A DNA stretch of 64,000 nucleotides, from positions 310,001-374,000 of the forward strand of contig NZ_JABEZU010000002.1 in NCBI RefSeq assembly GCF_013149785.1, read 5' to 3'. The stretch comes from Isoptericola halotolerans (GTDB taxonomy: Bacteria; Actinomycetota; Actinomycetes; Actinomycetales; Cellulomonadaceae). Under the pieces are notes generated by a model. That model searched no databases and was not told where the DNA came from. It saw nothing but the letters and a program-made list of their open reading frames with translations. Numbering within the stretch: position 1 is the first letter of the stretch; every line of letters begins with the position of its first letter. Below are positions 2,914 to 60,185 of this stretch, one piece after another. A program made the position numbers and the translations under genes.

Positions 2914-4029
<1,116 letters not shown>

Positions 4030-4101
4030 GGTGATTCCCTCCACCGGCAGGTACGTGCCGGACGATCCGTTGTGGTCGGGTGTCTTGCGTTCACGACTGG
4101 C

Positions 4102-57781: not shown

Positions 57782-57844
57782 CCTGCTCCTGGGACCTGCC
57801 GGTGGGGGGAGACCTGCGCCGGAACAGGACGGTGTGACCGGAAC

Positions 57845-57873
57845 GTGACATCGCCGGGCCGTTCCGGTACGGT
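57845..57873 (+). promoter_or_regulatory. Promoter of the first riboswitch/NlpC unit
   Basis: GTGACA (57845-57850), a 17-nt spacer and TACGGT (57868-57873). The second unit has the same boxes and spacing in otherwise unlike sequence (59096-59124). Confidence 0.6.
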
Positions 57874-57913: not shown

Positions 57914-58090
57914 TGGACCGCCAAGTCCTGCCACCGCTCTGGCCCCACGGAAGACCGCCGGCAGGAGCGGGGGACCCATTTGTGGGCATCGGTGACGGTG
58001 TCCTTGGGGTGAAGTCGCACGGGGCCGTTGGTCTCGTGGGGCCGGGTGTTTCTCCCACCCGAACCCGACAGCTGACCTCGTAGGCGACAG
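57914..58090 (+). ncRNA. Cyclic di-AMP riboswitch (ydaO-yuaA type), copy 1
   Basis: The region before the NlpC/P60 gene has the conserved blocks of the ydaO c-di-AMP riboswitch in order: 'CCGCCAAGTCCTGCC', 'GGCAGGAGCGGGGGACCC', 'GGGGTGAAGTC', 'GGGGCC', 'CCCGAACCCGACAGCTGACC' and 'CTCGTAGGCG'. The outer GCC (57920-57922) can pair with GGC (58083-58085). In actinobacteria this riboswitch controls secreted cell-wall hydrolases and normally turns expression off when c-di-AMP is high. The gene's ribosome site (GGAGAGGG) follows directly. Confidence 0.9.
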
Positions 58091-58534
58091 GAGAGGGAAC
58101 ACGTGAACGCATCTACCAGGACGCGTGGCAAGCACCGCGCCGCTCGTCGTCCGATGTTGGCCGCCCCGTCGGCGGCTGCCGGTCGTCGGGCTGCTGTGGT
58201 CGCCACGGCCGGTGGTCTGCTGGTCTCGACGATCGGTGGGGCGACTGCGGCGCAGGCTGCCCCGGTCGACACCGACGCGGCGAAGAAGCTGAGCACGGTT
58301 GATCTGGGAGCTCTGACCGACCAGGCGCGGACCGCGCTGGAGGCTGCTCCGGTCGTGACCGTGGACTCCGAGGCCAAGGTCTCGGGTGAGCGGATCACGC
58401 CGAAGATCGCCGCGAAGGCCGAGATCAAGGCTGCGCCGGAGCCCGAGCCGGAGCCGGTTCGTGAGGTCGCTCCGTCGCGCTCGGCCGAGCGCACCGCGGT
58501 GCCGACGAGCACCGGGTCGTCGGAGTCGAGCACG
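57951..58534 (+). repeat. 584-nt duplicated block, copy 1
   Basis: Identical by eye to 59194-59777 (offset 1243): it covers most of the riboswitch, the signal peptide and the linker of the NlpC/P60 gene. Identity stops sharply at both ends. Confidence 0.88.
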
Positions 58535-58906
58535 GAGTCCGCCTCGACGCCCGCCGCCGCGCCGGCCTCGGCCAACGGGTCGAACATCATCTCGATCGCC
58601 TCGCGCTACGTCGGCGTCCCGTACGTCTCCGGTGGCACGACGCCGTCGGGCTTCGACTGCTCCGGCTTCACCTCCTACGTCTTCGCCCAGGCCGGCATCA
58701 CGCTGCCCCGCTCCTCCTCGGCACAGCGCGACGCCGGGACGGTCGTCTCGCGTGCCAACGCGCAGCCGGGCGACCTGATCTGGTCCCCGGGCCACATCGC
58801 CATCTACGCCGGCGGCAACTCGCAGATCGACGCCCCCCGTCCGGGCAAGACGATCCAGTTCCGCAGCATCTGGCAGTCGAACCCCACGTTCATCCGCGTG
58901 GGCTGA
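58103..58906 (+). CDS. Secreted NlpC/P60 peptidase (cell-wall hydrolase) 1
   Basis: 267 residues. Signal peptide (about 1-52: 'RRAAVVATAGGLLVSTIGGATAAQAAP'), a ~100-residue low-complexity Pro/Glu/Ser linker, then an NlpC/P60 domain (about 160-267) with catalytic Cys in 'GFDCSGFTSYVF' and His in 'GHIAIYAGG'. It cleaves peptidoglycan stem peptides outside the cell. The GTG at 58103 has GGAGAGGG upstream. Expression is under a c-di-AMP riboswitch. The first 144 or so residues are identical to those of the protein at 59346, but the catalytic domains differ widely. Confidence 0.93.
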   Translation: MNASTRTRGKHRAARRPMLAAPSAAAGRRAAVVATAGGLLVSTIGGATAAQAAPVDTDAAKKLSTVDLGALTDQARTALEAAPVVTVDSEAKVSGERITPKIAAKAEIKAAPEPEPEPVREVAPSRSAERTAVPTSTGSSESSTESASTPAAAPASANGSNIISIASRYVGVPYVSGGTTPSGFDCSGFTSYVFAQAGITLPRSSSAQRDAGTVVSRANAQPGDLIWSPGHIAIYAGGNSQIDAPRPGKTIQFRSIWQSNPTFIRVG

Positions 58907-58923
58907 CCTCCCCGGTCGGTCGT

Positions 58924-58969
58924 CGCCCGCAGGCCCTGTCGCAGATCGTCGCGACAGGGCCTGCGGGCG
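58924..58969 (+). terminator. Terminator of NlpC/P60 gene 1
   Basis: Perfect 19-bp stem (58924-58942 with 58951-58969) with an 8-nt loop, 17 nt after the stop and followed by TCTCTG. It separates the two tandem units. Confidence 0.85.
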
Positions 58970-59095
58970 TCTCTGCGCCGTGACCGACCGTCGGGCCCCC
59001 CTCTGCCCGGGAACGGTGACACGAGGCCTGAGGGGCCGCCGAGGGGCCTCTGGCGGCCTGTGACGGAGTCCACCGGTCGTTGTCGTGACCTAAAC

Positions 59096-59124
59096 GTGAC
59101 ATGGGCGCCGGGATCCGCTACGGT
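59096..59124 (+). promoter_or_regulatory. Promoter of the second riboswitch/NlpC unit
   Basis: GTGACA (59096-59101), 17-nt spacer, TACGGT (59119-59124), as in copy 1. Each unit thus has its own promoter. Confidence 0.6.
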
Positions 59125-59160
59125 TTCCACGTCCGGTGGAGGTTTCTGCCGGATCCTGAC

Positions 59161-59333
59161 CGGACGCCGAGTCCTGCCACCGGTCGGGGAACCAAGACCG
59201 CCGGCAGGAGCGGGGGACCCATTTGTGGGCATCGGTGACGGTGTCCTTGGGGTGAAGTCGCACGGGGCCGTTGGTCTCGTGGGGCCGGGTGTTTCTCCCA
59301 CCCGAACCCGACAGCTGACCTCGTAGGCGACAG
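59161..59333 (+). ncRNA. Cyclic di-AMP riboswitch (ydaO-yuaA type), copy 2
   Basis: Same conserved blocks as copy 1. From 59194 on the sequence is identical to copy 1; the 5' part ('ACGCCGAGTCCTGCCACCGG') differs yet keeps the conserved bases and pairings, evidence that structure has been maintained. It precedes the second NlpC/P60 gene. Confidence 0.9.
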
Positions 59334-59777
59334 GAGAGGGAACACGTGAACGCATCTACCAGGACGCGTGGCAAGCACCGCGCCGCTCGTCGTCCGATGT
59401 TGGCCGCCCCGTCGGCGGCTGCCGGTCGTCGGGCTGCTGTGGTCGCCACGGCCGGTGGTCTGCTGGTCTCGACGATCGGTGGGGCGACTGCGGCGCAGGC
59501 TGCCCCGGTCGACACCGACGCGGCGAAGAAGCTGAGCACGGTTGATCTGGGAGCTCTGACCGACCAGGCGCGGACCGCGCTGGAGGCTGCTCCGGTCGTG
59601 ACCGTGGACTCCGAGGCCAAGGTCTCGGGTGAGCGGATCACGCCGAAGATCGCCGCGAAGGCCGAGATCAAGGCTGCGCCGGAGCCCGAGCCGGAGCCGG
59701 TTCGTGAGGTCGCTCCGTCGCGCTCGGCCGAGCGCACCGCGGTGCCGACGAGCACCGGGTCGTCGGAGTCGAGCACG
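59194..59777 (+). repeat. 584-nt duplicated block, copy 2
   Basis: Matches 57951-58534 without a difference that I can see. It ends within the Ser-rich linker codons of the gene, after which the two genes part. Confidence 0.88.
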
Positions 59778-60185
59778 CCGTCGGCCGAGTCCACCAGCTC
59801 CGAGTCGACCTCCGCCGCACCCGCCGCCGACGGCTCGCGTGGCTCGCAGGTCGTCTCGATCGCCGCGCGCTACATCGGGACGAAGTATGTCGTCGGTGGT
59901 GCATCGCCGTCGGGCTTCGACTGCTCGGGTCTGGTGACCTATGCCTACGCCCAGGTCGGCGTGACCTCGCTGCCCCGGTCGTCGAGCCAGATGGTCGGCT
60001 CTTCCGCCACGACGCAGGTCTCGCGGGCCGAGGCTCAGCCCGGCGACCTCATCTGGTCGCCCGGCCACATCTCGATCTACATCGGGAACGGTCAGCAGAT
60101 CGAGGCGACGCGCCCCGGTGGCTGGACCGTGCGGCAGTCCGGCATCTGGCAGTCCAACCCGACCTTCCTGCGGGTCACCGGCTGA
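59346..60185 (+). CDS. Secreted NlpC/P60 peptidase (cell-wall hydrolase) 2
   Basis: 279 residues. Signal peptide and linker as in gene 1, with an extra Ser/Thr-rich stretch (about 145-165), then a catalytic domain (about 170-279) with Cys in 'GFDCSGLVTYAYAQVGV' and His in 'PGHISIYIGNG'. Compared with gene 1 the catalytic half is clearly different ('VVSIAARYIGTKYVVGGASPS' against 'IISIASRYVGVPYVSGGTTPS'), so the two may cut different bonds or act at different sites. It is under its own c-di-AMP riboswitch and promoter. Confidence 0.93.
   Translation: MNASTRTRGKHRAARRPMLAAPSAAAGRRAAVVATAGGLLVSTIGGATAAQAAPVDTDAAKKLSTVDLGALTDQARTALEAAPVVTVDSEAKVSGERITPKIAAKAEIKAAPEPEPEPVREVAPSRSAERTAVPTSTGSSESSTPSAESTSSESTSAAPAADGSRGSQVVSIAARYIGTKYVVGGASPSGFDCSGLVTYAYAQVGVTSLPRSSSQMVGSSATTQVSRAEAQPGDLIWSPGHISIYIGNGQQIEATRPGGWTVRQSGIWQSNPTFLRVTG

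Follow-up and report, generated by a model that had tools for sequence, protein, structure and literature searches.

Tandem NlpC/P60 hydrolase genes of Isoptericola halotolerans share an identical riboswitch and signal-peptide block, with probable recurrent gene conversion of a front module

Where paralogues undergo gene conversion, the best-known outcomes are the homogenisation of entire proteins and the generation of antigen variants. In prokaryotes, 22 of 26 genes under long-lasting concerted evolution encode proteins of stable complexes, a pattern explained by gene balance (PMC6053082), and the main text of that paper contains 0 occurrences of NlpC. Conversion can also leave behind a peak of divergence, for example in the red and green opsins (PMC3924837, citing Teshima and Innan 2008). 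In Corynebacterium glutamicum, the ydaO-type riboswitch of nlpC, which responds to cyclic di-adenosine monophosphate (c-di-AMP), is an OFF switch that most likely acts on translation and has no canonical terminator (PMC9960051). Here we analyse two neighbouring NlpC/P60 genes, A and B, each behind such a riboswitch, in a 64,000-nucleotide (nt) stretch of the Isoptericola halotolerans genome (assembly GCF_013149785.1, contig NZ_JABEZU010000002.1, positions 310,001 to 374,000; hereafter, the window). The two genes share an identical block that reaches from the riboswitch into the protein-coding part, followed by different catalytic domains, and we consider recurrent conversion of this regulatory and export module between old tandem paralogues to be, with high confidence, the best explanation.

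An identical block ahead of two different catalytic domains

The maximal exact match between the two units extends over 584 nt with 0 mismatches (start-to-start distance 1243 nt; coordinates in Table 1), precisely as a sequence-only reading of the window had claimed, and comprises 152 nt of leader followed by 432 nt (144 codons) of both genes. Beyond both ends, A and B diverge abruptly. The 5′ end of the block lies within the riboswitch leader, in the first hairpin, after the arm TCCTGCC (57926-57932) and before the arm GGCAGGA (57960-57966); because the block starts within the leader, the 5′ strand of P1 probably lies outside it, yet this strand is conserved in both copies. The 3′ end falls into a Ser/Thr-rich linker, in frame and directly after codon 144 in both genes. 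Further downstream, the catalytic parts have an identity of 0.682 over 318 nt, in keeping with the many differences noted earlier. As for the upstream side, the same reading had held that the flanks differ, which is true of the 90 nt before the CGGGGGA core (A/B identity 0.62 over aligned columns; the last 17 nt are inside the block) but not of the promoter-like elements further upstream, which are of one type. With these elements, the full units begin at about 57834 (A) and 59085 (B).

Both genes are predicted to encode exported NlpC/P60 hydrolases, with PF00877 scores of 78.2 (A) and 70.3 (B) bits at a curated cut-off of 23. The catalytic Cys (within DCSG) and His (within a GH motif) are found in 25/25 A, 25/25 B and 8/8 single copies; the frames were picked by DCSG, which leaves only the His count as independent. 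The third catalytic residue, 12 positions after the His, is Asp in all 25 A and all 8 single copies, and in B it is Glu in 24 of 25 and Asp in one. Given this difference between A and B, the two enzymes plausibly differ in function; in the Rip proteins, the third residue is Glu in RipA and RipB, and His in RipC (PMC12067865). By its sequence, the B copy with Asp is that of G003 (locus L044), whose catalytic domain sits on a long branch (0.45).

Conflicting histories of front module and catalytic domain

The pair is widespread. A match to the block at E 1e-20 or better occurs in 18 of 18 genus genomes and two matches occur in 17 of them, including the source genome of the window (G000; 3.97 Mb, 6 contigs). 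Across the family, we searched 200 genomes, obtained a match in 100, and read the loci in 33 or fewer of those 100. Of the 17 other genus members, 16 have two complete genes in the loci read—the remaining one, G015, has no complete gene before its contig end and was left out of all pair tests—and two genes were also read in eight further family members (G020, G035, G066, G072, G088, G103, G026 and G124); eight others, chosen from the matches, have one such gene within the 8 kb read. In G008, the A and B genes are on two contigs, with the copies at the contig ends. Of the 13 named loci that match the B protein, 11 belong to Isoptericola, one to Krasilnikoviella flava and one to a distant Chloroflexota metagenome-assembled genome. 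In a protein tree of all 25 pairs and the 8 single-copy catalytic domains (109 columns), the B domains are monophyletic (100/97) and the single copies are interspersed among the A domains, arguing that A is the ancestral type; inside A this tree is weakly resolved, and the single copies do not fall on one side of a branch. With pairs read in 25 genomes and all B catalytic domains in one clade, the duplication is old. The two genes are not necessarily adjacent, as A and B of G014 (locus L056, 2868-7253) are separated by ~4.4 kb that contain open frames, one of which presumably encodes a copper-type P-ATPase.

DNA trees and permutations were based on 19 of the 25 pairs (38 copies). The catalytic-domain tree separates A from B with a single label change (support 98/97), and across these 19 genomes the catalytic domains are positional orthologues; the genes as wholes do not evolve in concert. 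The tree of leader plus N-terminus conflicts with this picture: it contains 11 label changes, of which starred branches force 8, and making A monophyletic costs 233 log units and is rejected (approximately unbiased test, p 9.3e-5). Taken singly, the leader likewise has many label changes (9; p 0.021), as does the N-terminus (10; p 0.0014). In clade 3, A and B front ends are sister to each other as groups (100/99), which fits an older exchange.

The partner test starts from the premise that, without exchange, A should be no closer to the B of its own genome than to the B of other genomes. Over the 19 genomes, the 90 nt before the CGGGGGA core showed no within-genome excess (−0.009; 18,008/20,000 permutations as high), the leader (+0.053), the two N-terminal parts (N1 +0.073, N2 +0.107) and the linker (+0.098) each showed an excess that 0/20,000 permutations reached, and the first catalytic segment was back near zero (+0.006; 2,251/20,000). 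At third codon positions, the N-terminus had an excess of +0.126 (0/20,000) and the whole catalytic part of −0.001 (11,232/20,000). Leaving out G000 preserved the signal (N-terminal third positions +0.103, leader +0.047, both 0/20,000), and the four single-contig genomes alone gave +0.101 for the leader, +0.151 for N2, and −0.007 and +0.010 for the catalytic segments, with 834 to 867/20,000 permutations as high in leader, N-terminus and linker—about the minimum for 24 orderings. The own partner was the closest B for 10/19 A leaders and 10/19 A N2 parts, and for 1/19 and 3/19 in the catalytic segments. Within a genome, the copies of the module are more alike than separate descent allows, a result carried by clade 1 (8 genomes). 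The tree conflict and a module excess that is absent from catalytic third positions together bear out the proposal, made from the sequence alone, that conversion was confined to the regulatory and export module.

We also compared exact runs between A and B in 24 of the 25 pairs; dropped was G103 (locus L078), whose open A frame is without the usual N-terminal motif and may be frameshifted or mis-assembled. The longest runs were those of G000 (584 nt), G012 (145 nt), G009 (130 nt) and G017 (98 nt), the last three being single-contig assemblies in which the between-genome maxima were 59, 59 and 55 nt, respectively. Since the between-genome maximum over all 24 pairs tested was 72 nt, the 584-nt run is far above what relatedness would produce. 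A GENECONV-style per-pair fragment test returned p <=0.0065 in 17/19 pairs; it is confounded by the more conserved N-terminus and we do not count it as evidence.

Direction of transfer and competing explanations

Diagnostic sites were positions where the A copies of G008 and G011 carry one base and their B copies share a different one. The G000 block holds 19 of these, of which 15 are B-type, one is A-type and 3 are neither, and the latest event in G000 therefore ran mainly from B to A. In the catalytic domain, each copy has the base of its own type at 52 of 59 such sites, and before the block this holds for 18 of 32, the others being B-type in both copies (5), A-type in both copies (3) or of another kind (6). 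A drop of identity in the linker is also visible in G009, G012, G017 and G011, the other pairs displayed, in all of which identity is also lowered near the start codon (windows 0.72-0.88), a stretch that has kept separate A and B types. Among the five pairs displayed, only in G000 was the start-codon stretch overwritten.

Several observations count against recurrent, module-confined conversion as a general account. The second catalytic segment has a small within-genome excess (+0.009; 342/20,000). Clade 2 (6 genomes) is weak at most (leader −0.011, N1 +0.004, N2 +0.014, linker +0.019; permutations as high, 1,432/20,000 for N2 and 538/20,000 for the linker), and clade 3 has no visible excess in the partner test, its three genomes providing only 6 orderings. 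Exact runs in 20 of 24 pairs, at 23-58 nt, are within the between-genome range. The check suggested earlier, whether copies within a genome are closer to each other than to orthologues, held as a module excess over the 19 pairs without one at catalytic third positions, but in its strict form it succeeded in only 3 of 19: the proportion of synonymous differences (pS) in the N-region was below that to both nearest same-position orthologues in G000 (0 vs 0.483 and 0.443; catalytic part 0.445), G009 (0.133 vs 0.191 for A and 0.209 for B; catalytic part 0.354) and G017 (0.241 vs 0.244 and 0.310). In the 16 genomes that fail this form, exchange is older, partial or absent. Moreover, the zero-mismatch state of the G000 block comes from a single assembly, selection on the catalytic domain is a presumption, and plain B-to-A conversion leaves an excess of private changes in the G000 block without explanation.

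This last excess is where the strongest alternative enters, namely that the front module of G000 was imported from an unsampled strain into one copy before being converted into the other. N-terminus and leader (58103-58435 and 57951-58102 in copy A, with their counterparts in copy B) carry 41 + 11 private changes in G000, compared with 10 + 2 in G011 B and 19 + 3 in G008 B, and the catalytic parts carry 22, 23 and 20 (B) and 9, 17 and 21 (A) in G000, G011 and G008, respectively. The excess over G011 B (52 vs 12, with 22 vs 23 in catalytic B) has a Fisher p of 0.0007, and the G+C content at third codon positions in the N part, 0.784, is the lowest among the 38 copies; 31 of the 41 private changes in this part (58103-58435) are at third positions. 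However, the same test against G008 B (52 vs 22) gives p 0.07, and among the 200 family genomes searched none is closer than G011 (86%). An import preceding the A/B conversion would explain the private changes, though we regard it as fairly unlikely. GC-biased conversion is not indicated, with 16 private N-terminal changes from G/C to A/T vs 7 from A/T to G/C.

That two similar front ends were collapsed into one consensus during assembly of G000 is very unlikely. G000 is a draft, and in its sister G008 the copies are at contig ends; against this, shorter tracts occur in three single-contig genomes, the excess persists without G000, and the block continues into distinct flanks on either side.

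Three further accounts have next to no chance of being correct. Purifying selection that acts, without any exchange, on RNA structure and signal peptide could draw on the conservation of aptamer core and protein start among aligned copies but is refuted by the within-genome excess at third codon positions, by the absence of any difference over 584 nt that include all synonymous sites, and by the lower similarity of A and B between genomes. Domain swapping, in which catalytic domains of foreign or paralogous origin came to stand behind front ends that had been duplicated, would equally produce identical front ends and different back ends, and had been offered as an alternative in the sequence-only reading; it fails because the catalytic domains cluster by position across species, and searching G000 with the B protein (E up to 0.001) yielded A, B and a single relative, at 52%. 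Finally, a recent tandem duplication of the whole gene with fast catalytic divergence, which identical leaders and N-termini alone would resemble and which had rightly been dismissed before, is refuted by the orthologous pairs in the genus and in other genera and by the positional orthology of the domains.

For the favoured explanation, gene conversion of the front module, we envisage the following course. An old tandem duplication produced two predicted exported NlpC/P60 hydrolases, each behind a c-di-AMP riboswitch, of which A retains the ancestral catalytic type and B diverged once, before the split of the four paired genera, including the change from Asp to Glu. The copies lie 1.2 kb apart, and homologous recombination has probably since carried from one to the other, repeatedly, a module of aptamer core, ribosome site, signal peptide and first part of the linker; in this respect, one gene conversion and a pair of unequal crossovers are indistinguishable. 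Upstream, tracts probably end where the leaders lose homology. Downstream, they probably stop in the low-complexity linker because a conversion reaching the catalytic domain would cost the cell one of its two enzymes and be removed by selection, so that cells keeping both catalytic types would be those whose tracts ended earlier. The outcome would be two different hydrolases with their own promoters and one c-di-AMP switch and export signal. That such module-level concerted evolution is adaptive, with recombination retained because it holds both functionally different hydrolases to one c-di-AMP set point and export route, is a speculative idea that we consider unlikely; if true, a regulatory and export cassette would evolve as one unit shared by two genes.

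Regulatory elements and comparison with known systems

Table 1 Features of the tandem NlpC/P60 units in the window
Feature	Position	Strand	Basis and details
Promoter-like element, copy A (putative function)	57834..57873	+	GTGACC-n5-GTGACA repeat 57834-57850; -35-like GTGACA 57845-57850; 17-nt spacer; -10-like TACGGT 57868-57873
c-di-AMP riboswitch leader, copy A	57919..58102	+	RF00379; Rfam match 57946-58102, 61.0 bits
Probably converted block, copy A (recipient)	57951..58534	+	584 nt identical to 59194-59777; diagnostic sites; most of riboswitch, Shine-Dalgarno, start, signal peptide, linker
Shine-Dalgarno-like AGGAGAGG, copy A (putative role)	58089..58096	+	Sequence and cmscan alignment
Gene A, predicted exported NlpC/P60 hydrolase	58103..58906	+	267 aa, GTG start; PF00877 5.3e-22, residues 171-256; Cys186-His231-Asp243
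Unconverted A part: remaining Ser/Thr linker and catalytic domain	58535..58903	+	Catalytic part (318 nt): 0.682 nt identity to B
Promoter-like element, copy B (putative function)	59085..59124	+	GTGACC-n5-GTGACA; -35-like 59096-59101; N17; -10-like TACGGT 59119-59124
c-di-AMP riboswitch leader, copy B	59155..59345	+	RF00379, 65.3 bits
Probably converted block, copy B (likely donor)	59194..59777	+	Exact match; diagnostic sites
Gene B, predicted exported NlpC/P60 hydrolase	59346..60185	+	279 aa, GTG start; PF00877 1.5e-19, residues 178-261; Cys193-His241-Glu253
Unconverted B part: remaining linker and catalytic domain	59778..60182	+	Exact-match end; alignment

Both leaders match the c-di-AMP (ydaO/yuaA) riboswitch family RF00379 well above its gathering score of 38, and the loci of relatives contain 37 such matches in 20 loci, which equals the number of leaders expected. 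G000 has four matches: the A and B leaders, one upstream of a further, third NlpC/P60 gene (52% to B), and one (locus L002) before what we take, from its motif, to be a D-Ala-D-Ala carboxypeptidase gene. Elsewhere in the window, an msiK RNA (RF01747) is present at 4029-4088 on the minus strand (60.5 bits).

In copy A, the 5′ strand of P1 is probably CGCC at 57919-57922, as read by eye (the cmscan placement differs), and the 3′ strand, GGCG at 58083-58086, ends two nt before AGGAGAGG, therefore leaving no space for a terminator. A translational OFF switch, as for C. glutamicum nlpC, is likely: with c-di-AMP bound, P1 would be closed two nt before the Shine-Dalgarno sequence and translation would be off.

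Upstream of both copies in G000 stands GTGACA-N17-TACGGT, and the pattern GTGAC(A/T)-N17/18-TAC(G/C)GT recurs in 38/38 copies, 246-269 nt before the start, a count made without a chance control. A direct repeat, GTGACC-n5-GTGAC (57834-57850 and 59085-59101), has an 11-nt period and overlaps the -35-like element; its 16-nt form is matched in 18/38 copies, and it could be a candidate response-regulator site. MtrA as the regulator found no support, the motif given in PMC9599347 being TCG-rich.

Gene conversion is known, as are RF00379 riboswitches ahead of NlpC/P60 genes and the persistence of divergence in spite of conversion. Conversion of a riboswitch-plus-export module between distinct hydrolases had no report among the open-licence matches listed, as judged by titles and abstract starts. 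With C. glutamicum nlpC, the locus shares the RNA family, the kind of target and the lack of a canonical terminator (PMC9960051); there, however, one riboswitch precedes nlpC in an operon with a second nlpC-type gene (PMC9960051), whereas here there is a switch for each gene, and homogenisation affects the front ends. The B triad, Cys-His-Glu with Glu 12 residues after His, is like that of mycobacterial RipA (His432/Glu444; PMC12067865), and A departs from RipA and RipB in having Asp at the Glu position (PMC12067865); the solved Rip structures were matched with B as the sole query, mostly in the catalytic part.

As in the systems of PMC6053082, tandem mtrA (PMC4632066) included, conversion appears to have recurred between old paralogues, some of them tandem. 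Compared with the cases of PMC6053082, mostly proteins of stable complexes, the homogenised portion is here a noncoding ligand-sensing switch together with a secretion signal, and the active sites of the enzymes remain different. Exchange is seen in some of the 25 pairs and not in others, which makes them a natural experiment on whether co-regulation of paralogues can be maintained by recombination, and they carry a warning that phylogenies of leaders or N-termini of tandem paralogues can mislead orthology. Tracts that end before the catalytic domain are a known signature of conversion against selection (PMC3924837), and as in the opsins, flanks would be homogenised by conversion and a functional segment kept apart by selection (PMC3924837). 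The opsin case is human and concerns two sites of one exon; in the Isoptericola pair, a whole catalytic domain diverges and the homogenised part holds a riboswitch. The pair looks like a clear example of partial concerted evolution in bacteria.

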